Assembly (NCBI GenBank): GCA_017649705.1
Contig: JAGCGH010000150.1
Location: forward strand, 1-49,331
Reading direction: 5' to 3'
DNA length: 49,331 nucleotides
Source of the DNA: a bacterium
GTDB taxonomy: Bacteria; Auribacterota; UBA3054
Part shown: positions 9,604-49,331 of the stretch, one piece after another
Layout: every line of letters starts with the position of its first letter
Numbering within the stretch: the stretch's first letter is position 1
Notes under the pieces: generated by a model
Databases searched by the model: none
Told to the model about the DNA's origin: nothing
The model's input: the letters and a program-made list of their open reading frames with translations, nothing else
Made by a program: the position numbers and the translations under genes

Positions 9604-11082
9604 TTACTGCGGGCCTTCTCTTTTTACGGCCCGGAAGGAGGCTTTTACGCCGGACCTGAAGGTTATTTCGCCCTCCATGCTGTCCGAGGTATAGGTCCCT
9701 TCTATGCTTTCAAGCTCGCTTCTGTAAACGCCGTCGTCTTTGGCGGAAAAAGACCCGTCCTTTATTTTCCCTGAAAAGGAGGCCAGGTACTTCATCGAGT
9801 TGCGGGTGTAAACGGCTTGGATGACATCCAGGCCGGTGAGCATGTCGCGGCCGCAGATCAGGCGGAGGCTCCAGGTCTCGCCGTCTTTTGTTATCTCTCC
9901 CTTCCAAAAGGTCGTGGCGAGATCGGAAGTCTCTGCTTTTTGCGCGGCGCTGAGGAGATCCAGGGCGCTGAAGGAACCGAGAAGTTTGTCGCCCAAAAAA
10001 ACGCTTCCGGTGACGCGGCCGTCTTTGAAACGGCCCCTGGCGGTCATAACTTCGCCTCCCCCCAAAGGAACGGCGGCTTTGAAATAGCCTTCTCCCATGG
10101 CTCCCAAAAGCAGTTCTTCGCGCCTTGTCCCGTCGTCTGAATAGACGGTGAAGAGAAATTCCCGGACGCCCTTTTCGGCTTTGGATATGGAAAGGGAAAA
10201 TCGCGTGCTTTCCTTGTCCTTTTCCTTGAATTTGCCCCGGTAATATTTTTCTATGGGGCGGGAAAGTTTTTTCCCGGCCGTTTTTTCCTCCGCATCGCCC
10301 GGGGCCGCTTTCGCTTCTGCCGGAGCATTGCAATCTTCGGCCCGGAAATAGTAGGCCTGATAAGTTCCCCCCAGCAGTTTCACGCCGTTGAGGGCGGGTC
10401 CGTCTATTGAGCAGTTCAGCGTGTTGCCGGAACCGTCAAAGGCTGTGAGGGAAGTTTTTTCAAGCGTTCCCGCGAACTTTTCCTCGGTCCCTTTATAGTT
10501 GAGAGCGATCTCGCAGCGCCCGCCTTCCGCAACGGTCATTTCCGCCCTTAGGGGGAAGGAGGAGGCGTCGTTTTCATAGAGTTTCCCCTCGAAGATGTTT
10601 TTGCCGCCGCTTTGAGGATCAAAAGTTTTCTTTTCTTGCGAAGCAGTCACTTTAAGATCCGCCGCCGGGGCGGCGGCTTCCTCCGCGAGTCTGTCCTGCC
10701 TCCTTATGGCTTCCCGGTCGCCCGCCGACACCAAAAAGACGACGTTGTTGTCCCGATCCGTGATCCCGGCTTCCAGGGTGTCATCCGCGAAAAAGCCCGA
10801 GAAGGTCAGTTCCTGAAAGGCGTCCCGGGCCAGGAAGGAATTGTCGTAGGACTTTTCGCCGAGGAAAACGTCGGTCCTCAATGACTCTACGCTCTTGTAG
10901 GTCAGCTCGATGAACTGTTTTGATCCCGCCTCTTCCCCGGAAGTGATCTTCACTATGCAAGGAACGGCTTCGCCTCCCGGGCGTTTTATTTCCCCGAGAA
11001 GATAATCCGTTTGTTTGGCGTGGGCTGAAAGCGAGAGCAGAAACGCCAGGGACGCGGCGGCTGCGAGCTTGAAGGATTTCAT
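9604..11082 (-). CDS. Exported protein of unknown function
   Basis: The 492 residues begin with a clear signal peptide (MKSFKLAAAASLAFLLSLSA, probable cleavage after AHA). The mature protein is rich in short charged beta-strand-like segments with recurring phrases such as GxFKDGRVTGSVFLG, KIKDGSFSAKDDG and GEITFRSGVKASF, suggesting repeated small beta units, but I recognise no named domain. I place the start at 11082 rather than at a more upstream in-frame codon, because it gives the signal peptide and has AGGTG about six bases upstream. Residues 195-290 and 310-350 are Glu/Lys/Ala-rich linkers. It is probably periplasmic or surface exposed. It is transcribed divergently from the HAD phosphatase gene out of an overlapping promoter region. 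Confidence 0.75.
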   Translation of the reverse strand: MKSFKLAAAASLAFLLSLSAHAKQTDYLLGEIKRPGGEAVPCIVKITSGEEAGSKQFIELTYKSVESLRTDVFLGEKSYDNSFLARDAFQELTFSGFFADDTLEAGITDRDNNVVFLVSAGDREAIRRQDRLAEEAAAPAADLKVTASQEKKTFDPQSGGKNIFEGKLYENDASSFPLRAEMTVAEGGRCEIALNYKGTEEKFAGTLEKTSLTAFDGSGNTLNCSIDGPALNGVKLLGGTYQAYYFRAEDCNAPAEAKAAPGDAEEKTAGKKLSRPIEKYYRGKFKEKDKESTRFSLSISKAEKGVREFLFTVYSDDGTRREELLLGAMGEGYFKAAVPLGGGEVMTARGRFKDGRVTGSVFLGDKLLGSFSALDLLSAAQKAETSDLATTFWKGEITKDGETWSLRLICGRDMLTGLDVIQAVYTRNSMKYLASFSGKIKDGSFSAKDDGVYRSELESIEGTYTSDSMEGEITFRSGVKASFRAVKREGPQ

Positions 11083-34271: not shown

Positions 34272-37200
34272 ATGAAACGTTTTCTTCTCCTGGCGCTTCT
34301 TTTGGCGCTTTCCTCCACGCTTATGGCCGTGACCATCTACGAAGAGGATTTCGAGAGCTACGAGACCGGTACCGAACTGGTCGGGAACGTCGAAGGCTGG
34401 GCCTTCTTTTCCACCTACGACGGCAGCTCCACCATCGTCGAGAACGAGAGCGGCATTTCCAGCAAATGCCTGAAAATGCAGCAGACCGACGGCGGTTCGG
34501 CGGATTACGACATGATCTTCAGCCCGAAGTTCGATATGTCCACAGAAGATCCTCTTAGACAGCTTGTGAGAGTTTCCGCCACCGTGGTCCCCTCCAGCGA
34601 GACGGACATTATGGCGCTCTACGCCGTGAACGGCGAGACCAACCGTTTCGCCTATCTGCACATGAACGTGGCGAAAGGCGAGCTTACTTCCTACCCCACC
34701 GGCGCGACGCTGACCAATCTCCACAAGGACAATACGCCCAACCAGATCTCCATACTGTGGGACAACTACGACAACACCATCAGGGAGATCACCTGCAACG
34801 GCGAAGCCCAGGCCTGCCACATCCCCATGTCCGGCAGTTTCTATGGCCAGCCCGTCAGGATCCGCTTCTCCACGCAGTTCAGCACCAGAAAAGACTGGGT
34901 CACCTACTACGACGACGTCAAGGTGGAAGTTGAACCGCGCTACTCCGGCCCGCATCTGTTCATCGACACGAACAGCCTGACCCTTAAGAAGAAAGCCCAG
35001 GGTCACCTGACTCTCCAGAACGCCGGCAGTGAAGGCGACATCACCTTCTCGATCACCAAGAGCGAAGGCGCCGACTGGCTGACCGTCAGCCCCTCTAGCG
35101 GCACTTACAACGGCACCAAGGACCTGACCCTCTCCACTTCTGGCGACAAGGATTACGCCAGAGCGAAGTTCACCATCGACGCCGGCGACGCCGGAAAAGA
35201 AGTGGTGAGCGTTTACTGGGTGAACGGCACGGTCTTTTACCGCGAGGATTTTGAGGAACCCTTCATGACCATGGGCGACCTGCAGAACCAGGAAGGCTGG
35301 CTGGTCAGAAGCGACACCGGCTCCAGCAGCAACAGGGCCGAGATCGAAAAGCCCGAGTTTGCCGAAAGCCAGGTCATGCACGCTTACAGGTCCACCGGCT
35401 ACGACGGCGTCAGAAAGGGCGGCCGTCCCGGCAGCACGCCCATCGAAGGCTGCCCGGCCCTGGCCGTGGTGAAAGTTTCCGGCAAGGTCTATTGGGATTC
35501 TGCTTCCAACGCCGGCAGCGTCTACATCGCCACGCCTGACACCGCCAAGCCCTTCTGTATGAAGATCAGAAAGACTGACGGCCAGAACACCTTCTATCTC
35601 TACCAGATGAAGGATGGCTATTTCAGTCCTCCCGAATCGTTCAGCGGCAAGACCTGGCCCATGGACGAGTGGGTCTACATCTCCTACACCATCGACTTCG
35701 CCACTATGAAGGGCGTGGAAGTCCAGATCGGCGAGGATGTGGCGGACATCTCCGGCTACGAGCTCTACAACGTTGACGTCAAGGCCTTCACCGGCCTCTC
35801 CTTCTGCACCGACAAAGCTAGCGGCAACGACGACTGGGACGCCAAGTTCTACTTCGACGACATCCAGTGCGAATACATCCCCAGGGGCGACGAGCCCATC
35901 ATGGGCATCGACAACGACACTTTCCACACCGGCTTGACGGCTGAAAGCGGCGAAGTGACGCTGGTCAACGCCGGCGGCGGCAGCTTCGACTACACCGCCT
36001 CCGTTACAATGGGCAACAGCTGGCTCTCCATCGCCGAGCCCGCCAGCGGCACCTGCGAAGACGAAGCCAAGATCGTCTTCAACATCGACCGTTCCGGCAT
36101 GAACGAGGACTATTACCGCGGCGTGATCAACATTGACTGCGGCACGGCCGGCTCCACCAACGTCCTCGTGACGGCCGGCGCCGGACACATCATCTACAAG
36201 GAAGACTTCGAGGAACCCTTCATGCAGGTCGGCGACCTCCAGGGCCAGGACGGCTGGGTCGTCAGAGGCACCAACTGCGCCGACAGTAACGAAGCCTACG
36301 TCATCGACGCCCACGGCTCGCACTGCATGCACGCCAAGCGCGCCCAGGGTTACGACGGCATCAGGAACAACTCCATGTCCGGCTGCCCCGAGAACCAGCT
36401 CGTGAAGTTCTCTTACAGGATCTACTGGGACGACCAGTCCGAAGCGCAGAACGTCTATCTGGCCACCCCGGCCGGCATGAAGCCCTTCTGTATGAAGATC
36501 AGGAGAAAAGACGACGGCACCTTCTATCTCTACCAGATGATGGACGGCTCCTATCGTCCGCCGCTGGATGGCGTCAGCTGGTCCCTGAACGAATGGATCC
36601 CCATCTCCTATACCCTGGACTTCCGTTCCAACAGCGGCGTGACAGTCCAAATAGGCGACGACGAGGCTGACATCAACACCCTGGAACTCTACGGCAGCTA
36701 CAAGAAGCTGGAAGGCTTCTCCTTCTGCACGGACGGTTCCGGCAACGAATTCGACTCCCTCTTCTATTTCGACGACTTCAAGATGGAAGTCCTCGACAGG
36801 CCGGCCGATCCCAAGCTCTTCCTGACCAAGGACAGACTGGTGGTGGGCTTCGACGTCGAGACCGGCGCTCTGGCCATCCAGAACTCCGGCGCCGGCAGTT
36901 TCGAATGGACCGCTTCTTTCCCGGATGATCCCTCCTGGGTGGAACTGGTCGCCGAACACGGCACCTGCGAAAAGGAAGACGAGATCCGCTTCAAGATCCT
37001 GAGGGACGAGATGGAGTCTGACTACTACCGCACCGTCATGCACATCGACGCCGGCGAGGCCGGCGAGGCCGACGTTGTGGTCTGCGTCTGCTCCGGCAGT
37101 GTCTTCTACAAGGAAGACTTCGAGGAACCCTACATGCACGTGGGCGACCTGCAGAACCAGGACGGCTGGTGCGTCAGGAACGGCGGCTACTGCCGCGACG

Positions 37201-38675
37201 TGAACTCCGCCTTCGTCACCAACGGTCTGCCCTTCTCGGACGGCGCGGTGATGCACACCGTGGTCTCCAAGGGCATCGACGGCACTACCAAGGACTACGT
37301 CGACACCTGCCCCAGGGACGCCAGGGTGAAAGTCTCCATGGACGTTTACTGGGATAGCGCTTCTCCCTGCGACGCGGTGTACCTGGCCTGCCCGGCCCGC
37401 CACAAACCCATGACTCTTAAGATCGAGAACAAGGGCGACGGCACCTTCGGCGTCAGAGGCATGCAGGACGACAGCTACAAAGTGATGGTTGGCAAGACCT
37501 GGTCCATGGACGAATGGGTGCACATCAGCTATTCTATGGACGTCAGGACCCAGACCGGCGTCGAACTGACGATCGGCGAAGAGACCGAGGACATCACCCA
37601 GGTCGTGCTTTATGGCAACGGCGGCATTCACACCTACGAAGGCTTCTCCTTCTGCACGGACGGCGACGACGATATGGACTCCCTCTTCTACTTCGACAAT
37701 TTCGTCTTCGAGATCGTCCCCAAGGAAGACAAGCCCCATCCCGTGATGCCCAGCGCGACCGTTGTCGGATCGGAAGATTCCGCCACGGTGAAAGTTCTCA
37801 ATTACGGCACGCCGTATGACTTCTCTATCAGCGTGCTGGATATGCCCGGCAACGTGAGCGTCACTCCCGCCAGCGGCCGCACCGAGGATAGCACGGAGTT
37901 TACCGTGAAGGTGAGCCGCGAAAGTCTGGAAGAGAACTACTACCGCGCCAGGGTACGCATGGCTTATACCGACGGAACCACGGAGGGCGCTCTGACGTCC
38001 TTGGTGACCTTCGCGGTGGGCGGCTGGTACTATGGCGCCGACTTCCTCGGCCCCTGGTTCAGCTACGGTCCGCTGAACGGTCAGGAATGCTGGAGCGTCG
38101 GTGTCAGCGACTGCGAGATCATCAATCTGGACGGTGAGAACTGCATCAAGTTCCCCTATGCCTGCACCGCCGAGCTGGAAGCCAAGGTGCCCCTGGAAGG
38201 CATCTTCACCTTCAGCGGCCGCGTCTACTCCGAAGAGCTGGCTGACGACTCCTATTTCCACTTCGGAACCGTGGACGGCAGCGGCTACTATCCGATGTAC
38301 ATCTCTAGGGAAGGCGATCCCAGGGAACTGCAGTTCGGCTACTTCCAGGGCAACAACTGGACGCCTATTGCCACCGCGCCCTTCGGTGAATGGGTCGACT
38401 TCAGCTTCACCATGGACACCGACGTGACCGTGGCCAGCGTGACCCAGATCACCTTCGGCGACTTTGTGACCAACTTCGCCATCGGCGATCTCCCGCTGAA
38501 CACCAAGTACGACTTCGCGAAGATCGACAAGTTCACCATCGGCTTGCACGACGTGGCCAACCCGGCCGGCATGTATCTCTCCAGGATCGTCGTCAGGGAT
38601 CCCTCGGTCCCCGAACCGGCGATCTTGGCGTTGCTCGCCTTGGTCGGATTGCTCTTCGTGCGTAAAGCGAACTAA
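34272..38675 (+). CDS. Giant modular surface protein: repeated jelly-roll/BACON-like modules with PEP-CTERM tail
   Basis: The 1,467 residues have a signal peptide (MKRFLLLALLLALSSTLMA) and a C-terminal PEP-CTERM tail (VPEPAILALLALVGLLFV, then RKAN). Between them lie five modules of about 215-320 residues, beginning near residues 20, 321, 642, 945 and 1253. Each opens with a phrase like FYKEDFEEP...GDLQNQDGW, continues as a concanavalin-type jelly roll ending in FYFDDF or similar, and the first four end with a BACON-like Ig domain (for example SWLSIAEPASGT, DYYRGVINIDCGTAGS). Modules 2-4 share near-identical phrases even in DNA (tacaaggaagacttcgagga at 36196 and about 37110), so they expanded recently. 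Codons are strongly biased, suggesting high expression. Carbohydrate binding is an inference. Confidence 0.85.
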   Translation: MKRFLLLALLLALSSTLMAVTIYEEDFESYETGTELVGNVEGWAFFSTYDGSSTIVENESGISSKCLKMQQTDGGSADYDMIFSPKFDMSTEDPLRQLVRVSATVVPSSETDIMALYAVNGETNRFAYLHMNVAKGELTSYPTGATLTNLHKDNTPNQISILWDNYDNTIREITCNGEAQACHIPMSGSFYGQPVRIRFSTQFSTRKDWVTYYDDVKVEVEPRYSGPHLFIDTNSLTLKKKAQGHLTLQNAGSEGDITFSITKSEGADWLTVSPSSGTYNGTKDLTLSTSGDKDYARAKFTIDAGDAGKEVVSVYWVNGTVFYREDFEEPFMTMGDLQNQEGWLVRSDTGSSSNRAEIEKPEFAESQVMHAYRSTGYDGVRKGGRPGSTPIEGCPALAVVKVSGKVYWDSASNAGSVYIATPDTAKPFCMKIRKTDGQNTFYLYQMKDGYFSPPESFSGKTWPMDEWVYISYTIDFATMKGVEVQIGEDVADISGYELYNVDVKAFTGLSFCTDKASGNDDWDAKFYFDDIQCEYIPRGDEPIMGIDNDTFHTGLTAESGEVTLVNAGGGSFDYTASVTMGNSWLSIAEPASGTCEDEAKIVFNIDRSGMNEDYYRGVINIDCGTAGSTNVLVTAGAGHIIYKEDFEEPFMQVGDLQGQDGWVVRGTNCADSNEAYVIDAHGSHCMHAKRAQGYDGIRNNSMSGCPENQLVKFSYRIYWDDQSEAQNVYLATPAGMKPFCMKIRRKDDGTFYLYQMMDGSYRPPLDGVSWSLNEWIPISYTLDFRSNSGVTVQIGDDEADINTLELYGSYKKLEGFSFCTDGSGNEFDSLFYFDDFKMEVLDRPADPKLFLTKDRLVVGFDVETGALAIQNSGAGSFEWTASFPDDPSWVELVAEHGTCEKEDEIRFKILRDEMESDYYRTVMHIDAGEAGEADVVVCVCSGSVFYKEDFEEPYMHVGDLQNQDGWCVRNGGYCRDVNSAFVTNGLPFSDGAVMHTVVSKGIDGTTKDYVDTCPRDARVKVSMDVYWDSASPCDAVYLACPARHKPMTLKIENKGDGTFGVRGMQDDSYKVMVGKTWSMDEWVHISYSMDVRTQTGVELTIGEETEDITQVVLYGNGGIHTYEGFSFCTDGDDDMDSLFYFDNFVFEIVPKEDKPHPVMPSATVVGSEDSATVKVLNYGTPYDFSISVLDMPGNVSVTPASGRTEDSTEFTVKVSRESLEENYYRARVRMAYTDGTTEGALTSLVTFAVGGWYYGADFLGPWFSYGPLNGQECWSVGVSDCEIINLDGENCIKFPYACTAELEAKVPLEGIFTFSGRVYSEELADDSYFHFGTVDGSGYYPMYISREGDPRELQFGYFQGNNWTPIATAPFGEWVDFSFTMDTDVTVASVTQITFGDFVTNFAIGDLPLNTKYDFAKIDKFTIGLHDVANPAGMYLSRIVVRDPSVPEPAILALLALVGLLFVRKAN

Positions 38676-38683
38676 GTCCGTTT

Positions 38684-38697
38684 AGCCAGCGCTGGCT
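38684..38697. repeat. Short palindrome after the giant gene
   Basis: AGCCAGC followed directly by GCTGGCT, a perfect 14-base palindrome nine bases after the stop codon and just before the long terminator hairpin. It could be a hairpin in the mRNA tail or a protein-binding dyad. Confidence 0.4.
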
Positions 38698-38700
38698 TAC

Positions 38701-38772
38701 AGCGCAAAAAAGACACGCCCCTCTTGATTTTACTTCGTAACAAAATCTTGAGGGGTGTGTCTTTTTTTGCGC
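38701..38772. terminator. Very long terminator hairpin
   Basis: Arms of about 31 bases pair almost perfectly: AGCGCAAAAAAGACACGCCC followed by CTCTTGATTTT on the left and AAAATCTTGAGGGG followed by TGTGTCTTTTTTTGCGCT on the right, with a loop of about ten bases. One G:T wobble, a central TT/TT mismatch and one extra T in the right-hand T-run are the only imperfections. The seven T residues (38762-38768) lie inside the right arm. It ends the giant modular gene and can work in both directions. Confidence 0.8.
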
Positions 38773-38801
38773 TTACAGCCTTTGGTTTATTTTGCTATAA
38801 T
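38772..38801 (+). promoter_or_regulatory. Promoter of the 869-residue modular protein gene
   Basis: Extended -10 TGC-TATAAT (38793-38801) with a weak -35 CTTACA (38772-38777) at 18 bases. The -35 overlaps the end of the long terminator hairpin. The ATG is at 38834, with AGAGGA about six bases upstream of it. Confidence 0.55.
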
Positions 38802-38833
38802 TTCCGGTAATTTAATCAATAAGTAGAGGAATT

Positions 38834-41443
38834 ATGCGAAAGTTTTTTCTAACGGCTTTGGCCGGATTGACGGCTGCCGCGGCCTTGGGCGGGCAGGTCT
38901 ATTACAGCTGTGATTTTGAGGAAGGCTACACTGACGGCGACCTTCAGGGCCAGCACAACTGGACGGTCAGGTCCACCGACGGCTACAGCAGCCAGGAAAA
39001 CGCTGCCACGGTAGGAAGCTACAACGGCCGGCGCTGCGCCAAAATAGAAAGGGGCACCGGTTGGGACGGCGTCATCGTGAAAGAAATACCGGAAACGCCC
39101 AAGGGCAGTTTCGTCAAGGTCTCCTTCAAATTCTTCTGGCCGTCTGATTCCAGCGTCTCCAGCGTCCTTTTCACCAGCCACTGGTGGAACCGCCCCATGC
39201 TTCTTAGGTTCTCTTTGAACGACAAGGGCAAGATTCAGGTCTACGCCCTCCAGGACGACGTCAACTGCGTGCCGCAGGTCTTCAAGACGAAAGGCTTCGA
39301 CCAGGGGCAGTGGATAGACGTCTCCTACACGGTGGATTTCAGTTACCAAATGTTCGATACTCTCACGGTCAACGGCACCGAGGGCGACATCAGCAAGGTG
39401 GCTTTGCACGACGACTCCAAGAATCTGAAGAGCTTCGCCGTCAACGTGGACGCCGGCGCCGACATCTGCGTGGACGACATCAAGGTTGAGACTGTGGCGC
39501 ATTCAGGCAACCCCAGGCTGGTCCTGAAGACCGACCGTTTTGTCATAGCCTCCAAAAACGCCTCCGCGAAAATGCCCATGTACAATTTCGGCGAAGGCGA
39601 GATCACTTATAGAGCCACTGTTGACGATCAGCCGGAATGGCTGACCGTGAAGAACCCGGAGGGGACTTTCACGGCCAACACCACGCTTGACTTCAATCTT
39701 GACCGCTCGCTTATGGCGACCAACGTCTATTACCGCGTGCTGCACCTTGAAGCGGGTTCGGCCGGCAGCAAGGAAGTCATGCTGAAGATCCATTCCAAGG
39801 GCGCCATCGCCGCCTATTCCTTCGATCCGCCGGCCCTCTATCCCGGCGAGATCACCGGCCAGGACGGTTGGAAAGGCAGAAGCGGGGACGGCTACGGACC
39901 AAACGACATGTCCATGGACGTCACCAACGTCTCTTTCGGCGTGGACGGCCCCTGCGGCTATATTCACAATTCCTACGGCTGGGACGGCTACGACTGTCCC
40001 GCCAAATCGGATGGCGAGAATCCTCTCATCAGAGTGTCCATGAAGATCAGGAAGGGGAGCGAGAGCACCCAGGATTCCTTCTATCTGCGCAACGGATGGT
40101 GGGATTTCCTCTATGAATTCTGGTTCTGGGTCTACGAGGGGAATTTCTATCTTTACAAATTCAATCTCGGCGATTCTTACGCCGTCACCGGTTTCCATCC
40201 CTTCCCCTTGGACACCTGGCTTGATCTCTCCTTCACCGTCGACATGCGCCTTTACCGTCTGACGGAGTTCTCCCTGGGCGACTTCTCGACGAACTTCGTC
40301 AAGGGCTTTGAGCTTTACACCAAGCACGATTCCGAGGAGCGCTACACGATCTTCAACACGCTGGCCTTCATCTGCGGCAACACGGACGTCACCGACGCTG
40401 AGCTTTTAATCGACGACATTCTGGTCACGGAACTGGAACGCGAGAAAAAACCCGTGCCGATCATGGAAAAGATCGTGCCGGTCGATCCGAAGGCCAGCAG
40501 CATGACGGTGCCCCTTTTGAACGCGGGCGGCAGGGGCTTCAACTACACCCTTAGCGTGCTTGATCTGCCGGACAACATCGTCCCCAATCCCAACAGAGGC
40601 AGAGTGGGGGAAACGGCCGAGCTTAAATTCGATCTGAAAACGTCCAAACTGGAAGACGCTTTTTACCGCTCCAGAGTCGTTCTGGATTACAAGGGCGTTT
40701 CCAGCAGCGGCGACGGCTCCGTAACTTCGCTCTTCACCCTTGCCAAGGGCGGCTGGTACTATACCACGGATTTTGAGACCGGCGGTTACGAGCTGGGCAA
40801 CCTGAGAGACCAGGACACCTGGGTGGCCGGGGGCGTTTCTTCGGAAACGAATCCGCAGGTCGCCAAGAAAGAGGGCGAGCAGTGCGCCTGTCTCCCAGGC
40901 GAAGGCTACATGAAGAGCGCCTGCTTCATTCCCTCGGAGAGCGACTTTACTTTCAAGTGCCGCTTCTTTGTCGAGGAAGGCGACGACGAAGGCTACGCCA
41001 AGCTTTCCTTCATCGATGACACCGGCTTCCTGCCATTCTACATCTGCCGCGACAACGAGATCGGCCGCGCGGTCCTGGGCTATATCCCGGCCGGGGGAGA
41101 CACCTTCGAGCCGCTCTTCACCGCTCCTCTTGACTCCTGGCAGAATTTCTCCGTCAGCATGAACACCAATCTGGAATTCGACGAAGTCACGGCCATCACC
41201 TTCGGCGATTACGAGACGAACCTGCCTCCCGGCTCGATCTTTCTGAAAACGGAATACGACGCCTGCGCCGTCTCCAATTTTACCATCAGGGTGGATAGAA
41301 ATACGGAGGAGGAAGTGGACGTCGCGCCCTTCTGGTTCGACAACATCGTCGTGAGGGACAGTTCCATACCGGAACCCGCGGCCCTTTGCCTGCTGGCGCT
41401 TGCTTTGGCTTGCGCTCGCGTTTGTTTGACACGGAGAGCTTAA
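38834..41443 (+). CDS. Three-module jelly-roll/BACON-like surface protein with PEP-CTERM tail
   Basis: The 869 residues have a signal peptide (MRKFFLTALAGLTAAAALGG) and the tail IPEPAALCLLALALACARVC followed by LTRRA. Three modules start near residues 23, 325 and 640, each opening with a phrase like DFEEGYTDGDLQGQHNW and followed, in the first two, by a BACON-like Ig domain (QPEWLTVKNPEGTF, YYRVLHLEAGSAGS). It is a clear but diverged paralogue of the 1,467-residue protein immediately upstream and of the partial protein at the right edge; DNA-level identity is low, so the duplication is older than the module expansion inside the giant gene. Sugar or glycan binding at the cell surface is inferred. 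No enzyme motif is visible. Confidence 0.83.
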   Translation: MRKFFLTALAGLTAAAALGGQVYYSCDFEEGYTDGDLQGQHNWTVRSTDGYSSQENAATVGSYNGRRCAKIERGTGWDGVIVKEIPETPKGSFVKVSFKFFWPSDSSVSSVLFTSHWWNRPMLLRFSLNDKGKIQVYALQDDVNCVPQVFKTKGFDQGQWIDVSYTVDFSYQMFDTLTVNGTEGDISKVALHDDSKNLKSFAVNVDAGADICVDDIKVETVAHSGNPRLVLKTDRFVIASKNASAKMPMYNFGEGEITYRATVDDQPEWLTVKNPEGTFTANTTLDFNLDRSLMATNVYYRVLHLEAGSAGSKEVMLKIHSKGAIAAYSFDPPALYPGEITGQDGWKGRSGDGYGPNDMSMDVTNVSFGVDGPCGYIHNSYGWDGYDCPAKSDGENPLIRVSMKIRKGSESTQDSFYLRNGWWDFLYEFWFWVYEGNFYLYKFNLGDSYAVTGFHPFPLDTWLDLSFTVDMRLYRLTEFSLGDFSTNFVKGFELYTKHDSEERYTIFNTLAFICGNTDVTDAELLIDDILVTELEREKKPVPIMEKIVPVDPKASSMTVPLLNAGGRGFNYTLSVLDLPDNIVPNPNRGRVGETAELKFDLKTSKLEDAFYRSRVVLDYKGVSSSGDGSVTSLFTLAKGGWYYTTDFETGGYELGNLRDQDTWVAGGVSSETNPQVAKKEGEQCACLPGEGYMKSACFIPSESDFTFKCRFFVEEGDDEGYAKLSFIDDTGFLPFYICRDNEIGRAVLGYIPAGGDTFEPLFTAPLDSWQNFSVSMNTNLEFDEVTAITFGDYETNLPPGSIFLKTEYDACAVSNFTIRVDRNTEEEVDVAPFWFDNIVVRDSSIPEPAALCLLALALACARVCLTRRA

Positions 41444-41489: not shown

Positions 41490-42515
41490 ATGAGCCGCGA
41501 CATCGATTGGGGAAGCTTGGGCTTCGCTTACATGAAGACGGATTATCGTTACGTTTCTTACTTCAAGGACGGGAAGTGGGACGAAGGCAAGCTTATTGGC
41601 GACGACATGATCACGCTGAACGAGTGCGCCTGCGTCTTCCAGTACTGCCAGGCCTGCTTCGAGGGTTTAAAGGCCTACACCACCAAGGACGGCAGGATAG
41701 TCAGCTTCAGGCCCGACCTGAACGCCGAGAGGATGGCAGAGAGCGCCAGGCGCCTAGTTATGCCTCCTTTTCCCGAAAAACGCTTTATAGAGGCTGTGAG
41801 GGCCCTTGTCAAGGCCAACAAGGACTTCGTCCCGCCCTTTGGCAGCGGCGCGACTCTTTATATCCGTCCCTTCATGATCGGCTCCAACTCCGTAATAGGC
41901 GTGAAGCCGGCTGACGAGTTCGAGTTCAGGATGTTCTGCACGCCGGTGGGACCTTACTTCAAGGGCGGCGCCAAGCCCATCGTCATCAGAGTCTGCGACT
42001 ACGACCGCGCGGCCCCGAGAGGCACCGGACACATCAAGGCCGGGCTTAACTACGCCATGAGCCTCTACGCCGGCATGGAAGCCCATGCGGAAGGCTATGC
42101 CGAGAACATGTACCTTGACCCCGCCACCAGGACGAAAGTCGAGGAGACCGGCGGCGCCAACTTTATCTTCATCACCAAGGACGGCAAGTTCGTGACGCCG
42201 AAGTCCGACAGCATCCTGCCCTCTATTACCCGCCGCTCCCTTATGGTCGTGGCTGAGAAATACCTCGGCATGAAGGTGGAGCAGAGGGAAGTGACCTTGG
42301 CGGAAGTTCCCGAGTTCGCGGAATGCGGCCTGTGCGGCACCGCGGCGGTCATCTCCCCGGTGGGCAAGATCGTGGATCACGGCAAAGAGATCGCCTTCCC
42401 CAGCGGTATGGAGAAGATGGGTCCCTGGACGCAGAAACTCTACGATACGCTTACGGGCATCCAGATGGGCGTAATAGAGGGCCCCGAGGGCTGGGTGGAC
42501 ACCATCATAGGGTAA
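41490..42515 (+). CDS. ilvE: Branched-chain amino acid aminotransferase
   Basis: IlvE is the PLP-dependent enzyme that makes or breaks leucine, isoleucine and valine by transfer of the amino group to or from 2-oxoglutarate, in the cytoplasm. The 341 residues match the class IV (BCAT) family: QACFEGLKAYTTKDGRIVSF, ARRLVMPPF, TLYIRPFMIGS, the PLP lysine in GTGHIKAGLNYAMS, EETGGANFIF, SILPSITRRSL and CGTAAVISPVG. The length is typical. It is a single-gene unit with its own strong promoter. Its 3' end is the last GC-rich coding sequence before the AT-rich block, and the downstream convergent gene ends 34 bases away with no evident terminator between. Confidence 0.95.
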   Translation: MSRDIDWGSLGFAYMKTDYRYVSYFKDGKWDEGKLIGDDMITLNECACVFQYCQACFEGLKAYTTKDGRIVSFRPDLNAERMAESARRLVMPPFPEKRFIEAVRALVKANKDFVPPFGSGATLYIRPFMIGSNSVIGVKPADEFEFRMFCTPVGPYFKGGAKPIVIRVCDYDRAAPRGTGHIKAGLNYAMSLYAGMEAHAEGYAENMYLDPATRTKVEETGGANFIFITKDGKFVTPKSDSILPSITRRSLMVVAEKYLGMKVEQREVTLAEVPEFAECGLCGTAAVISPVGKIVDHGKEIAFPSGMEKMGPWTQKLYDTLTGIQMGVIEGPEGWVDTIIG

Positions 42516-42549
42516 AATTCGCCGATTTATTATTAAATCTTGACTCTAT

Positions 42550-43461
42550 CTAAGGCGTTTTAGGTGGCAATATTTCCGGTGCGGCAGTAATAAGTTTTTG
42601 CCGTTCGTTGATTGCCATTGAAAAAACTGTTAGTCGCTCTTCATTAGAAGACTGTCTCAGTGCTAAGTTTGTCAGAGCATGATAATAGTCTACTAATGTT
42701 TGAGGATGTTTAGAATCGGCAAGCATGGATATGATGGGAAGAGACCTCGCTATTATTTTTTCCGAAGCATCTGCGTTTTTTTCTAACCATTCGCAGGCTC
42801 TAGCCATTTTTTTAGTTATTTCATCTTTTGATGTGATAATTGCAGCCAGTTTAAGCTCCTCATAAAGTGTTCCGCCTGCCCCTACATATTCCTTTATGAA
42901 ATCGTCTAACTCACCGCACGTCTCAGGGTCTTTTTTTGCATAATCTATTAGTTGCGTAACGGCGATATAATCTTTAGGATCGTATAAAATAACTTGCTTT
43001 TGTATATCAATAGCTTTGCTGGTGTCACCTAAATGGCTATAATATCGGCGCAATATTTGATAAATTTGCTTATACGAGGTGAGCCCTCTTCCTTCTGCTT
43101 TTTCTTTATGTTTCGAAAGCAGAGAGTTGACTTTCTGGGGAATTGTTTTATTATCAGAATTATCACAGACCCAATAATATAATTCCATTCCGTCCAAAAC
43201 CAAAGGCAATAATTCCTTGTCTTTCAGGACAACTGTGCTAAGGTTGTTATTTTTTCGGAGTTCTTTTATCATTCTTATTGCTTCTGCTCTTTTGTGACGT
43301 TTAGCTAGAACCTCGATATCTTGAAGCTTTAATCTTAAAGCATCGTTACTCACTATATTTTCAGAAACCAGCCAAACACTCGCGGATATATTTAGACCTT
43401 CTGACTTAAACGACGTCAGAGTGATTGCTGATAATAGCATAAAAAGTTTTATGTATTTCAT
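42550..43461 (-). CDS. Exported TPR-like protein of the AT-rich island
   Basis: The 303 residues start with a signal peptide (MKYIKLFMLLSAITLTSF) and continue with paired helices resembling TPR units: DIEVLAKRHKRAEAIRMIKE, QILRRYYSHLGDTSKAIDIQ, and DYYHALTNLALRQSSNEERL. A longer reading frame begins at 43512 but would overlap the preceding gene by 38 bases and bury the signal peptide, so 43461 is the better start. It is the last gene of the island operon and converges on ilvE. Function unknown; the role is probably in the periplasm. Confidence 0.72.
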   Translation of the reverse strand: MKYIKLFMLLSAITLTSFKSEGLNISASVWLVSENIVSNDALRLKLQDIEVLAKRHKRAEAIRMIKELRKNNNLSTVVLKDKELLPLVLDGMELYYWVCDNSDNKTIPQKVNSLLSKHKEKAEGRGLTSYKQIYQILRRYYSHLGDTSKAIDIQKQVILYDPKDYIAVTQLIDYAKKDPETCGELDDFIKEYVGAGGTLYEELKLAAIITSKDEITKKMARACEWLEKNADASEKIIARSLPIISMLADSKHPQTLVDYYHALTNLALRQSSNEERLTVFSMAINERQKLITAAPEILPPKTP

Positions 43462-43474
43462 GAGTGCTTTATCC

Positions 43475-44713
43475 CTATTTGTTAACTTTATATTTTTTAT
43501 AATCGTTTTCAACAGATGTTTTAAAAAAACAATTGTTGAGTACTCTGTTTGTCATTATGCCCTCAGGAAGTTGATCGATTTCAGGCCATTTTATAGTTAA
43601 AGCATCATAAAGGTCATTAAATTCAACGACCGCGTTTTCATTCGTAAGAGCCGCCACCACAGCATTGTGTTTATCTATAATGCTTAACTTATTTGTTGCG
43701 CAATAATTCCATAATGATTCGTTCCTAAAATCATTAGGCAAAATTTTAAGGATATCATTTGCTCTGGAAGCGAATCTTTGATCAAATGATATGGCTGTTT
43801 GAATATGTTTAATGCAATTTGTATAATCCTTCAGATTAATACAATAATCAGCGGCAAGGCTGTGTCGCAATCCTGCGAAAGTATCATGATCTATGCTTGG
43901 TACTTCAACAAAAATCAAAGCCAAGGCGCTTCTATAATCGTTTAAAAGCGCAGCTGATTGGGCGGCAGCAATATATGAATATGTTATGTAGGTCAAGCAA
44001 GTAGGGAAGGTAGGGACTTTTATAAAATGAATAAGCGCTTCTTGATTAGAAGATATAAAATTAATAGGAATGTCATTATCAAAAACACTTGCTAGCGTGC
44101 GTCCAAGGAAAAAATGTGACGCACCTCGCACAAAGCCATCTTTGTTTTCTGGTAGTAGGAAGAAATTAAAAACATTCTTAGCTTTCTCGAAATGGCTATT
44201 CCAAAATGTTCTTTCTGCGAGCCAGTACACTTTTCCTGGGAAACTGGACAGTTTCAAAAGATTCCGATATTTTTCGATATCGTACATCATGTCGTGGTCG
44301 TTTTCTAGTCTTTCTTGAAATTCCTCTACTGTTTTAAGCGATATGATCGTTTTTTGTACATTTATGCCAAACTGAGAACGCTGCCTATACGCAGCGCTCC
44401 AGTTATACTCAATAGATTTTTTAAGCAGGTGATAGTTGATTAAATTTTTTGCTTCCCAAATATACACATTTTCTTTTTTCTTTAGCTGCTTTTGCATTTT
44501 AAGAATAGCCTGCTCAGAGATTTTAAGATTAATACTCCTCTGTTTAATAAAAATATTACTTAATGATTCATAAGAAATATTTTCCGGGATCTTTGAATCT
44601 ATGTCGCTGTTTTCCAAAAAATCCCTCATATATTTGCGTGAAAACCATTCTTCTGACGCATGGATATTTCCGATGATTATCAAAGCAAATAAAGATATGA
44701 GCAATTTTTTCAT
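43475..44713 (-). CDS. Exported helical (TPR-like) protein of the AT-rich island
   Basis: The 412 residues begin with a signal peptide (MKKLLISLFALIIIGNIHAS). The remainder is mainly helical, Lys/Asn/Ile-rich, with TPR-like patches such as AERTFWNSHFEKAKNVFNFF, AAQSAALLNDYRSALALIFV and DYCINLKDYTNCIKHIQTAI. No enzyme motif is visible. It starts four bases after the stop of the preceding 394-residue gene with no obvious Shine-Dalgarno, so its translation is likely coupled. The paralogy with the next gene is limited to the repeat type. Function unknown. Confidence 0.72.
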   Translation of the reverse strand: MKKLLISLFALIIIGNIHASEEWFSRKYMRDFLENSDIDSKIPENISYESLSNIFIKQRSINLKISEQAILKMQKQLKKKENVYIWEAKNLINYHLLKKSIEYNWSAAYRQRSQFGINVQKTIISLKTVEEFQERLENDHDMMYDIEKYRNLLKLSSFPGKVYWLAERTFWNSHFEKAKNVFNFFLLPENKDGFVRGASHFFLGRTLASVFDNDIPINFISSNQEALIHFIKVPTFPTCLTYITYSYIAAAQSAALLNDYRSALALIFVEVPSIDHDTFAGLRHSLAADYCINLKDYTNCIKHIQTAISFDQRFASRANDILKILPNDFRNESLWNYCATNKLSIIDKHNAVVAALTNENAVVEFNDLYDALTIKWPEIDQLPEGIMTNRVLNNCFFKTSVENDYKKYKVNK

Positions 44714-44717
44714 TTAA

Positions 44718-45902
44718 TTAATCGGCCGGAGTCAGATATCGTGGATTGAAGTTAGTGCAGTTGCGATCAAGTTCGAAAGCCATCCTTGAAGTGAAATTTG
44801 AAATCTCATCCGGCAATTTATAGTACCAATAATCTGGAACAGCCGGCCTATTTGTATAATAAGATAGCATTTCACGGCTATAGGCTTGCATGTATTCCTT
44901 ATATGATTTATCTGTTCTTATCGTTTTATGGCCTAATGAACCTATACTAAAAATACCGTTTAATTCATTTACGTAGTTTGTGTCTGTTATTCTTAATTTG
45001 GCTGCTTCAAGTCCCTCACAAGCTGGAAGAGTATATTTGCTGCCATTAGAAGAATACCAGCTTGCGAATGTTTGATTAGTCAACCCTCCGTCTTCTAATT
45101 TTATTGCCAAAGCCTTTAAAACAGGATTTAGAGTATTATCACCCGAATCAATAGCCCCTTTTACCAATGGAATAGCAGAAATACCTAATTCGGATATTTC
45201 TTTTGCTAGACAATCCAGAACACCTTCACGAGGGTTTTGCCTAGCCTGTTCGTATTGCCAGCAAGTATAAAAATCATTCCAAATATTTGTGGCATATTTT
45301 CTGCCTTCATACCACCAATAAATATAAAAATTGCTTGGTGATGGCGGAGGCCAATGATGTTTTGCCCATATTTCTGTAATATACCAATCTTCTGATTTTG
45401 TAAGTAATTTAAGACTCTCCCTGATGTATCGTTTTGTTACGGCATAAATTTTGGCTTGTTTTTTAAAGACTTTACCCTTTGAACAAATGCCAATGGCTTC
45501 ACCATCTCTTTCATCAATCCAATTATCATAATATTCATAAAATTCATTTGTGCCGAAAGCTCCGGTCTCCAGAATTTGAAAAAGCAAAGGCAATAGAAAG
45601 GAAGGCGGAACACTTTTTATATTGAAATCTGCTTCGCAGGCAAGATTTTCGTTCCGATTTATGTCAACGTTAATATTTGTGAGCCCATTCTGATTCAAGT
45701 TAACATTTCCAAACCTAAGATTTGCCAATTCTGCATAATTTGATAAATTTGTGGTCCATAGCTCAAATGAAGCTTGTTTGCTCATGTCCCAAACATGAGG
45801 TTTTTGAGAGACATTTATTAGCCACCCCATAATTTCTTCTTGCGAATCTATGCAAAAAGCATTAATTGTAATTATTGAAATAATTAAAAAAATTTTTTTC
45901 AT
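44718..45902 (-). CDS. Exported Trp-rich protein of the AT-rich island
   Basis: The 394 residues start MKKIFLIISIITINAFCIDS, a signal sequence (possible lipobox-like Cys at residue 17 but with Phe before it, so lipidation is doubtful). A central part is unusually Trp/Tyr-rich (EIWAKHHWPPPSPSNFYIYW, WNDFYTCWQYEQ). The region DCLAKEISELGISAIPLVKG with NPVLKALAIKLEDGG may be HEAT-like. No known family is recognised. AGGGG six bases before the ATG is a plausible Shine-Dalgarno. It begins 14 bases after the broken gene upstream and is followed after four bases by the 412-residue gene. Confidence 0.7.
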   Translation of the reverse strand: MKKIFLIISIITINAFCIDSQEEIMGWLINVSQKPHVWDMSKQASFELWTTNLSNYAELANLRFGNVNLNQNGLTNINVDINRNENLACEADFNIKSVPPSFLLPLLFQILETGAFGTNEFYEYYDNWIDERDGEAIGICSKGKVFKKQAKIYAVTKRYIRESLKLLTKSEDWYITEIWAKHHWPPPSPSNFYIYWWYEGRKYATNIWNDFYTCWQYEQARQNPREGVLDCLAKEISELGISAIPLVKGAIDSGDNTLNPVLKALAIKLEDGGLTNQTFASWYSSNGSKYTLPACEGLEAAKLRITDTNYVNELNGIFSIGSLGHKTIRTDKSYKEYMQAYSREMLSYYTNRPAVPDYWYYKLPDEISNFTSRMAFELDRNCTNFNPRYLTPAD

Positions 45903-45916
45903 AATAACCCCTTACC

Positions 45917-47907
45917 TTATTTGTATGATCTATTTATTTCACCGGCATAATCGCTTATTTGGTTGTGAAGATGCAAAATTACTCCTAGATCACCCAGTTT
46001 GCTTGCAAATATTTCCCACTCAATTGGAATGTGTGTCGGTTGCTTGTATTCTTCCGTTCTTAGCGAATTAGCTTTTCTGGCTGCATGATAATATGAATAG
46101 CAAATAATAATTCTACTTCTGTCATTGTTTTGACATTTTGTTAAATTTATATTACCATTCGATTTTTTCCATAGGTTATGGGTGAAAAATGCGTCGATCT
46201 CATCTTGCACATTTGCATTTTTAAAGTCATTCATTTTTACGAAATATTGATACAAAATTTTATTAATATTACTTCGTTGATCATTTAAAAATCCGGGTAT
46301 ATTATCTTTAAAGTATTCGTTGTATCCTAGAAGAATAGTAAAATCTCCATTTTCGTCTTGCTGAGGGTCGGTTGGATAAAAATTTTCTTCCCCAAATCTA
46401 TCATAAGCGGCTGCGATTATCTCATCGTATTTATTGGGTTTGATTGAGAATTTAGCAGAAAGAATAAAATTGTCTTTTGTCTCGGTGGGAAGTGGAACGG
46501 ATATATCTCCAAGAGGGAATGGATTTGCGCGAAACGATCCGATATATTTATTATCAATATTCATTGCTGGTCTTATGTTTTCGCCGTTTTGGAAATCAAC
46601 TTTTTTAAATACTTCAAGATATGGGTCTACAGCGAATGCATAACAATTGTAATTAAAATCGGCTGGCCTTATAAGACACCATTCGCAATCAATAATATTT
46701 TTACATTGATTCTATACTTCCTTCTTTCGGTTTTTGTTGGTTGAGTTTTTGAATCACCTACTGAGCAAGTAGCGTATTTAATTTTCTTTTGGATATTCTT
46801 TACGGTTATGGTTATTTCTCCTTCTGCGTCATAGGCTATTCCTTCAACATAAATAGGATGACCTAAAATTTCGCTGTTACTGCCATTGGAATTTAATGTC
46901 CATTCCCCAATTTTATCATCTCCCCCTAAAAGAAGATCACTTTCTTCTTGCCTGCTTTGATTTTTCCATACTCTAAGACAATCAGGCACTTCTATGCGTA
47001 TTTTTTCTCCTTGAAGGCTTTCGGCTCCGTCTGCTTTGCTAATGCTGATTTCTAATTCGCAAAGATCATCGTCTATGCTATCATTTTCAAAAACTTTTTG
47101 GAGATAATCCCAACCACAATTTCCTTTATCATCTTCTTCGGCAGATCCATCGTCATCATCTACATTAAAGTGGATAAAAACGCAACGGTCGTCCGTTATA
47201 TATGGATTTGTATGTATCATTTTCTGAATATCTGGTATGTAGGTTCCGCTATAATCTTTCCTTTTGACGGTTAAGAGATAGCTTTGATCCAGAACATTGA
47301 TGATTTTGGGATTTGCGTTAACTTCTACTCCGCTAACATTGGCTTTGCAGTTTAGAATTATAGCATCAGTTGACGTATTGGAAAAATTTAATGGATATGT
47401 GTCTCCTGTAGATGTGTGTGTCAAACCATTGTCTTCCCATGTCCATATATACGTTGCACCAATGCTGTTAAGATTACCATGGTGCTCTGGGTAATAAATG
47501 TGAGTTGAGTCTCTTAGAACTTCTTCGTCTCCGATTATGTCTATTGTTATTTGCGGCGCTTCCCACTTAACTGTTACAAGATTTGAAAATATTGTTTTCT
47601 CTACTCCAGGTTCTTCGGTGTATCTTGCACTGCATCTTACTGTAACTTCAACCGGGTACCCAGTTGATGGTTTTTCATTTCCGTTGAAATCAATGGTGAC
47701 CCTATTACCATTAGGTGTTTTAGTAGCATCGCCGGTTACTATCCAACTATATCCTATAAGGCCGTCCCCAATAAATGTTGCCTCGCAAACTGCTGAAGGC
47801 GGGATAAAATCTTCCATGGAAACATTTCCGCTAAGTGTCAAACTAACATTTTAATTAGCTAAACACAAAGAACTGAGAATGAAAATAAAAAGCAAAACTT
47901 TTTTCAT
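45917..47907 (-). pseudogene. Secreted Ig-like plus cysteine-hydrolase-like protein, broken by a stop and a frameshift
   Basis: Read on the minus strand from ATG 47907, the frame encodes a signal peptide (MKKVLLFIFILSSLCLAN), then TAA (47853-47851), then continues open in the same frame (NVSLTLSGNVSMEDF) for about 390 residues of Ig/PKD-like beta domains. It then hits a stop at 46669. One extra A in the A5 tract (T5 at 46698-46702 on the plus strand) would join the frame to the downstream part: NVK-NIIDCEWCLIRPADFNY, running through MNIDNKYIGSFRANPF to the stop at 45917. The downstream part contains NCYAFA, then YYHAARKAN and FASKLGDLGVILHLH, resembling a recalled family with NCxAxA, HxAR and SKLG...IxH motifs (DUF7689 type, uncertain), possibly a papain-like hydrolase. 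Restored, it would be about 663 residues. It heads the island operon. Confidence 0.75.
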
Positions 47908-47935
47908 AGGAATACCATTAAATTTAATCACATTC

Positions 47936-47964
47936 ATTTTAGCATTTTACACTCATGGAGGCAA
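47936..47964 (-). promoter_or_regulatory. Promoter of the AT-rich island operon
   Basis: On the minus strand TTGCCT (47964-47959), 17-base spacer, extended -10 TGC-TAAAAT (47944-47936). The ATG of the broken first gene is at 47907. No Shine-Dalgarno is obvious before it. Confidence 0.5.
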
Positions 47965-47999
47965 TCAAAAATATCAGTGATTACTCTTCTATAGGAACG

Positions 48000-48049: not shown

Positions 48050-49331
48050 TCAGCTTCTCTTTTTGAGGAGCAGGAGAGCAAGCAGGAGCGCTATGACCGT
48101 CGGCTCGGGCAGGCTCCTGTCGCAGACTATGAGGTTGTCCACCCAGACGCCAACTTCATCGTCCTCCTCCAGATTAAAGGCCGTAAGTACCAGCTCGTCC
48201 AGGGGCAGGCCGTCGTAAGCGGGATTCAGCACGATCTCGCCCTCATAGAAGTTGGTGGTAAAGTCGTTCAGGGTGAGGCTGACGGCGCAGGAAGCGGCCA
48301 GGTCAGTGTCGAGAATGAAGGAGAGATCGTTCCACTGCTCCAGAGGAGCCTCGCAGAGCTTGTAATCCGGGTCATTGTAGCTCGTGTGGTAAACAAAGGC
48401 GTTCTTGCTCTTTTTGGGCTCGTAGACCACGTAGACTTGCAGGTTGCCGTCGCCGCCCTTCTTCCTGTTCTTCGCGGTCACTTCCATAAGGTAAGGCTTC
48501 CTCCTGTCTTCCATGAAGAAGCGCAGGCTGGTCCTGTAGGGAGTCTCGGCGGGCACGAGCATGGTGGAGGAGGCGCTGGAGTCGTAGGGGAAGAAGAGGC
48601 ACTGCAGCCCGTCCTTAATGGCCACGCTGGGAGCGGCCGTTCCCCAGGTGTAGGCGCTCCAGGTGTCCTGACCACTGAGGAAGCCGGGTTCGTAGCCTGT
48701 GCCCTCGAATTCCGAGGTGTAGAACCAGCCGCCCTGGGAGAAGGTGAGGTAGCATGAGAGGCTGCCGGAACTTGAGCCGTCCACCGCGGAGTAGTCCATA
48801 ATGAGGTAGGCGCGGTGGAAACCTTCGTCGACGGAGGCGCGGTCCAATTTTATGATGACCGTTCCGTTCCCGGAGCCGGTGCCGTGATCGTTGACCACCG
48901 AGAGGCCTTTCTTGTCGCCGCTGAATCTTAAGGTGTAATTGAAATCAACGCTTCCCAGATTCGAGATCTTGTTCGTAAGTGCGCTGAGCTGGCCGCCGAA
49001 ATTCATGGCGGCGGTCCAGATGGGCAGGGCGGCCTCGGGCCTGTCGATCTGCTCGACCAGAATGTTGTCCAGGTAGAGGGCGGCGTCCTCGGTCTCGCTT
49101 CCGCCGCAGGTGACGTCGAAGTACTCGTAGCGCTCGACCGGATTGACGCGGTCGTTGGGAGCGTTCCAGAGCGTCATGCCTTCCGCGTAATTCGTGGTGA
49201 AGCTGCCGAAGGTCACGCTGGTCAGCTTGTAGGCCTTATAATCCAATGTGAAGGAGAAGGGGACCCATTCGTCCAGATATTCGGCGTGCTCTCCCGCCAG
49301 GGTGTAGGTGTCGCCCTCGTTCAACCTGTAG
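48050..49331 (-). CDS. C-terminal part of a modular jelly-roll/BACON-like PEP-CTERM protein (runs off the window)
   Basis: At least 426 residues are visible; the frame is open to the window edge, so the N-terminus and signal peptide lie outside. The visible part ends one module (RLNEGDTYTLAG, WVPFSFTLDYKAYKLTSVTF, ALYLDNILVEQI), then a BACON-like Ig domain (VDFNYTLRFSGDKKGLSVVN, FHRAYLIMDYSAVDG), then a last module opening WFYTSEFEGTGYEPGFLSGQ. It ends LPEPTVIALLLALLLLKKRS, a PEP-CTERM tail. It is a paralogue of the 1,467- and 869-residue proteins, on the opposite strand, and closes the region to the right of the AT-rich island. The role is presumably at the cell surface. Confidence 0.85.
   Translation of the reverse strand, partial: YRLNEGDTYTLAGEHAEYLDEWVPFSFTLDYKAYKLTSVTFGSFTTNYAEGMTLWNAPNDRVNPVERYEYFDVTCGGSETEDAALYLDNILVEQIDRPEAALPIWTAAMNFGGQLSALTNKISNLGSVDFNYTLRFSGDKKGLSVVNDHGTGSGNGTVIIKLDRASVDEGFHRAYLIMDYSAVDGSSSGSLSCYLTFSQGGWFYTSEFEGTGYEPGFLSGQDTWSAYTWGTAAPSVAIKDGLQCLFFPYDSSASSTMLVPAETPYRTSLRFFMEDRRKPYLMEVTAKNRKKGGDGNLQVYVVYEPKKSKNAFVYHTSYNDPDYKLCEAPLEQWNDLSFILDTDLAASCAVSLTLNDFTTNFYEGEIVLNPAYDGLPLDELVLTAFNLEEDDEVGVWVDNLIVCDRSLPEPTVIALLLALLLLKKRS

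Follow-up and report, generated by a model that had tools for sequence, protein, structure and literature searches.

A recurrent AT-rich cassette encoding a polymorphic exported hydrolase-like protein and its helical partner in a genus of ruminant-gut bacteria

The described systems closest to the locus reported here are the polymorphic toxin–immunity systems, the DUF7689 family (PF24738) and the exosortase/PEP-CTERM surface proteins. Among polymorphic toxins are papain-like ones that have an NC-H signature and are exported by way of a signal peptide (PMC3482391). Our locus is built around a gene pair, A and B, and shares with these systems a constant N-terminal part followed by a variable C-terminal enzyme domain, an adjacent and co-varying partner gene, and the occurrence of orphan partners (PMC3482391). 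It differs in that A and B match no known toxin or immunity family; in B only the N-terminus is variable, many copies of A are pseudoenzymes, and two helper genes, C and D, are present. Canonical DUF7689 members are, among those seen, mostly single-domain proteins of about 170–200 amino acids, and the literature searched holds no published function for them. The C-terminal domain of A shares their invariant Asn, Cys, His, Lys, Gly and His residues. In the copies from the present genus, Cys and His are separated by an insertion, which is long in the window type, and the protein has a signal peptide and an Ig-like stalk in addition. PEP-CTERM-like tails are found on modular proteins that flank the cassette and on the partner protein of a second cassette type, whereas A, B, C and D are tail-less.

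The window, i.e. the whole stretch of 49,331 nucleotides that was analysed, is a complete contig (C165) of the MAG G000. It contains an island (42518–47995) with a G+C content of 0.354, compared with 0.578 on the left side and 0.586 on the right side. When 5.48 kb stretches were scanned over the first 42.5 kb of the window, the lowest G+C content was at least 0.559 (mean 0.579, s.d. 0.011). GC3 is 0.27–0.33 in the island genes and 0.76–0.84 in the surroundings. The genes A-B-C-D form a single minus-strand operon in which neighbours overlap or are separated by 4–15 bp. This agrees with the first-pass annotation, which had described an operon with a composition and codon use sharply different from its flanks. 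The features are the following.

41490–42515, plus strand: left flank, ilvE (branched-chain aminotransferase; Pfam Aminotran_4, 7.6e-37), outside the cassette.
42518–47995, no strand assigned: AT-rich cassette, an insertion relative to genome G003 (G+C, GC3 and alignment to the empty site).
42550–43461, minus strand: gene D, exported-type, weakly TPR-like (TPR matches below the cut-off); corrected start at the ATG at 43461.
43475–44713, minus strand: gene C, exported-type, weakly TPR-like (TPR matches below the cut-off).
44718–45902, minus strand: gene B, the partner of A, a Trp-rich, all-alpha protein of exported type (40 homologues among the loci fetched from the genus).
45917–47907, minus strand: gene A, broken; signal peptide and Ig-like region, with DUF7689 as the C-terminal domain (from tblastn with an intact homologue).
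About 46717–46726, minus strand: gene A changes frame, ahead of the part for the catalytic domain (frameshift seen as a frame switch between tblastn pieces).
47851–47853, minus strand: codon 19 of gene A is an in-frame stop (TAA), directly after the signal peptide (MKKVLLFIFILSSLCLAN*; direct translation).
48050–49330, minus strand: right flank, a modular protein ending in a PEP-CTERM-like tail, truncated by the contig end (99% identical in G003, where it adjoins ilvE).

The island is an insertion. Its junctions were set by alignment to the empty site of G003 (contig C38, locus L078), where ilvE and the modular gene are joined by a clean 80 bp junction and the flanks are 92% identical to the window on one side and 98% on the other. 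About 18 bp, a terminator-like hairpin, are present there in place of the 5.48 kb of the window. The first-pass annotation had proposed that such an empty site be looked for, and would have abandoned the idea of transfer had the same block, with the same composition, occupied this place in all relatives; it is missing between ilvE and the modular gene in all seven congeners. Since a different modular gene adjoins ilvE in most of the others, G003 provides the one clean comparison. The window ilvE itself is 94–97% identical to the copies in congeners. Searches of the window island and its surroundings for tRNAs, Rfam RNAs, direct repeats and mobility genes were negative, as had been noted earlier for mobility genes and repeats. 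Positions 34272–41443 and 48050–49330 encode large modular proteins that are BACON-like and have PEP-CTERM-like ends; each genome of the genus contains 17–28 relatives of these proteins. The G000 MAG appears to be a mixed population: the flanks on contig C165 are 92–98% identical to G003, the other contigs mostly 86–88% with one piece at 95%, and a second version of the ilvE region lies on contig C130 (L080). Because two versions of this region are present, the window contig may stem from a second population close to G003.

The reading frames of B, C and D are open in the window. The operon is of exported type as first described, except that the open reading frames at 46669–47841 and 45917–46564 belong to one broken gene A: tblastn with an intact homologue aligns 47895–46717 in one frame and 46726–45923 in another. 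Intact A proteins in relatives have about 640–680 amino acids. Assembly errors are possible in principle; with two lesions in a single gene, decay is the more likely cause, and the window copy reads as a decayed cassette with an inactivated A. The closest cassette in G002 (L021) likewise has a frame-broken gene A. Intact homologues from other genomes were used for the analyses of A, and the broken window gene was left unmended.

A Pfam search with the window copy of A alone gave no match. DUF7689 was matched by three of 20 A homologues (best 1.5e-5), and one copy from the genus (L130) lies above the curated cut-off. The six residues named above are invariant between canonical DUF7689 proteins of other bacteria and the A family in an eight-sequence alignment that includes the window, and the C-terminal domain of A has the motif YNC...HAAR...W..SKxG..I.H. 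Both the profile match and the N-C, H and SKxG-H residues of DUF7689 are thus present in the A family. In the AlphaFold model of an intact A (pLDDT 83), Cys410 is located at helix 410–415 and His590 on strand 589–594. The Foldseek matches are dominated by the Ig part, which is the only part recognized in the PDB search with this model; no useful sequence relatives were found in the PDB. A is probably a papain-like cysteine hydrolase or peptidase that would use the N-C and H residues.

Gene B is characterized by the motif WWYEGR..IW.DWY.CW. Its AlphaFold model (pLDDT 78, pTM 0.78) has no match in the PDB or in a viral structure library at E ≤ 1e-3. Homologues of C occur in six of the eight genus genomes, and in some relatives D is fused to C, giving a DC fusion family of 632–648 amino acids. 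The best match of C and D to Pfam TPR families is 14.2 bits, below the curated cut-off of 30.1. Signal-like N-termini, judged by reading and a hydrophobicity count without a dedicated predictor, are present in 29 of 33 A, 39 of 40 B, nine of 11 C and all 17 D proteins, and are the only export feature seen in A–D. A B-type domain precedes a GH27 α-galactosidase (Melibiase) in L056 (4305–6563), and in L038 and L052 a B domain follows what reads as an Ig-like part. Beside pheT, L035 (8930–12162) contains three tandem B genes and no A, like arrays of orphan partners.

About 31 such cassettes are present across seven of the eight genomes of this ruminant-gut genus. Homologues of B are found in all eight (18 matches in G002, eight in G006, eight in G007); the single match in G003 is the α-galactosidase fusion, hence the count of seven for cassettes. 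None of 90 other genomes searched contains a relative of B. Pattern scans of GTDB r220 together with a genome-contig scan found B in members of the genus only; the matches, from which records near the window may be omitted, have titles that name them as MAGs from the ruminant gut (yak, water buffalo and goat). Relatives of A or B were absent from IMG/VR, those of A from plasmids and those of B from phages. Bar distant pairs, the cassettes have so far been found only in a single genus of bacteria from the gut of cow, yak and goat. One of these, a distant DUF7689 and B-like pair, lies outside the genus in the same phylum (G033, L129; hhalign 95.5%, 1.5e-8). In another genome (L138) a DUF7689 gene is followed by a B-like gene with a weak match to B (hhalign 81%, 1.2e-5). 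The A–B pairing thus predates the genus.

The cassettes are inserted between differing housekeeping genes, and whether a given site is filled varies between species. One set has the gene orders ABCD, DABC or DCAB (window-like); the other includes an anchored repeat protein or a fused DC. The trpD site spans 5.8 kb in G002 and at most 150 bp in four genomes, the filled lysC site 4.2 kb compared with about 115–121 bp in three genomes, and the rpsD site 4.8–5.5 kb in G004 and G007 compared with about 95 bp in G003 and G001. At a site common to G000, G006 and G007, cassette GC3 is 0.36–0.47 and that of the neighbours is 0.7–0.8; the orthologous cassettes at this site have a dN/dS of about 0.1–0.2, i.e. 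they are under purifying selection. As cassettes conserved at a locus are equally AT-rich, composition is no proof of recent import. Of the transferred block originally proposed, the insertion is therefore upheld, but composition alone does not indicate an unrelated donor. Conserved cassettes of low G+C content and few relatives outside the genus make it appear that the cassettes circulate within the genus. Single genes are also exchanged within orthologous cassettes (L039 versus L058: dS of 0.15 for A and 1.49 for B). One assembly contains a near-identical cassette with flanks twice (L049/L050; G006, contigs C4 and C6), the result of a duplicate assembly or a mixture.

The order of the two central genes is invariably A then B, mostly with gaps of less than 60 bp (31 pairs). 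B without A is seen in eight of 40 cases and A without an intact B in one of 33. The distances within A and B correlate strongly (Mantel r = 0.925, reached in none of 2000 permutations), a correlation of which linkage by itself yields much. The partial correlation with the catalytic domain of A is 0.365 for the N-terminus of B and −0.17 for its C-terminus. The paralogs L026 and L027 are mostly 73–99% identical in nucleotide sequence over the upstream 330 bp and the stalk of A, about 50–68% identical over the catalytic domain of A and the N-terminus of B, and 85–100% identical over most of the C-terminal half of B. This pair is the only one with a clear co-swapped block; in other pairs the exchange lies elsewhere, as in L049/L058, where it affects the N-terminal part of A. 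A constant N-terminus with an exchangeable C-terminal domain, as in toxin–immunity systems, is thus seen in one clear pair, next to a cognate protein that co-varies with the effector domain.

We favour, at a probability of about 0.4, a genus-specific mobile AT-rich cassette that encodes a polymorphic exported hydrolase and its specific partner and resembles a toxin–immunity pair. The co-exchange of domain and partner, the rarity of A without B and the orphan B genes argue for this reading. A would be exported by the Sec pathway, with its DUF7689 hydrolase domain at the C-terminal end of the Ig-like stalk. B would be an exported helical protein that uses its variable N-terminal region to bind the catalytic domain of A, rendering this domain harmless or ensuring its proper targeting, and C and D would be exported, weakly TPR-like helpers. 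The catalytic domain and the N-terminus of B are exchanged jointly, as in toxin–immunity or enzyme–specific-inhibitor pairs, and this joint exchange makes competition, either extracellular or in the envelope, the most likely role, with B as the cognate protection. By analogy, the diversification of A and B looks like weapon-and-shield evolution. The system agrees with the earlier suggestion of an exported system not described so far, and a toxin, one of the roles suggested there, would fit the way in which A and B have evolved; no evidence was found for the predation-related role also suggested. A known anti-phage defence system was rejected, as PADLOC gave no match.

It is possible, though somewhat unlikely, that the cassette is instead a secreted module for degradation and nutrient uptake, in which A degrades proteins or glycoproteins of the rumen, B serves with the TPR-like proteins as a scaffold for binding, and the copies diverge by substrate. 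The fusion of B to GH27, the BACON-like and PEP-CTERM-like surface proteins that flank the cassette and abound in each genome, and the purifying selection on orthologous copies are all consistent with such a module. The B domain in the three fusion loci could equally be a module for binding in general or an immunity protein, and both the α-galactosidase fusion and the pseudoenzyme branch are compatible with a secreted binding or degradation system. However, a simple hydrolase has no need of block-wise co-variation with B or of so constant a companion, and the catalytic Cys has been lost from more than half of the A copies. 

The catalytic Cys is kept in ten of 12 cassettes without an anchored protein or DC fusion and in none of the 20 with them (Fisher 1e-6, related copies being non-independent). 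Many A copies that lack it are nevertheless kept under purifying selection (dN/dS of about 0.1–0.2). The PEP-CTERM-like tail is present on 25 of 30 anchored proteins and never on A–D. This second cassette type, which travels with the exosortase-anchored repeat protein, is probably a surface or binding derivative.

Att-like direct duplications of 95–129 bp bracket some of the cassettes; the window island lacks them. In L024 the repeats (3556–3650 and 10481–10575; 95 bp, 100% identity) comprise the 3′ part of tRNA-Arg and a terminator; those of L028 (129 bp, 93%) contain the end of lysC and those of L046 (121 bp, 92%) lie near rpsD. The empty lysC and L024 sites have a single repeat copy. Each genome encodes one or two full-length tyrosine recombinases, with an additional 184-amino-acid frame in G000, and none is located at the islands. 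Their size and conservation suggest the XerC/XerD type. The genome of L024 has two full-length tyrosine recombinases, neither of them near the repeat-bracketed cassette. An integrase-borne genomic island or ICE failed as an explanation, as the islands have no integrase and the window has no att-like repeats. We consider it rather doubtful that the cassettes constitute a new mobile element that spreads by duplicating gene 3′ ends (tRNA-Arg, lysC) in a host essentially without integrases beyond XerC/XerD, in which the hydrolase domain and the N-terminal half of a novel-fold partner are exchanged jointly and a second lineage has become a surface-anchored pseudoenzyme.

A variable surface or adhesion system, in which recombination diversifies proteins of the extracellular matrix or of attachment and the hydrolase domain is mostly a binding fold, is distinctly unlikely. 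The Ig-like stalk, the gene-wise mosaic divergence of orthologous cassettes, the anchored repeat protein adjoining many A–B pairs and the loss of Cys in anchored-type cassettes would fit, but window-type cassettes have no anchor and retain the catalytic residues. An ordinary genomic island recently imported from an unrelated AT-rich donor, with host-irrelevant genes now decaying, is very improbable and largely refuted: the contrast in composition, the empty site in G003 and the two lesions in gene A fit it, but the families occur at many loci of the genus, some common to several species, with equally low G+C content, and no donor outside the genus was found in 98 related or other genomes, the GTDB scans, IMG/VR, phages or plasmids.

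Should A be toxic and B protective, as in the toxin–immunity-like reading, the cassette represents a new rumen competition system; if otherwise, the secreted enzymes form a new, partner-dependent family. In this uncultured rumen genus, a gene family resembling an exported arsenal roams by an unexplained and apparently integrase-free route. The pair also links the widespread DUF7689 domain to a co-evolving partner and so offers a handle on its function. In unrelated genomes, L136 (214–1875) and L140 (258–1881) have genes for TIGR04255, a small HEAT-like protein and DUF7689 in a row. These loci have no PADLOC match, and the small protein is not significantly similar to the B profile (hhalign E of 0.3). 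By reading, their proteins are non-exported, unlike A and B; as in B, the small helical protein directly before DUF7689 contains a stretch of the form I.GMG..A.P..L.EL. In L135 (813–1884) the HEAT-like and DUF7689 genes are present and TIGR04255 is missing.
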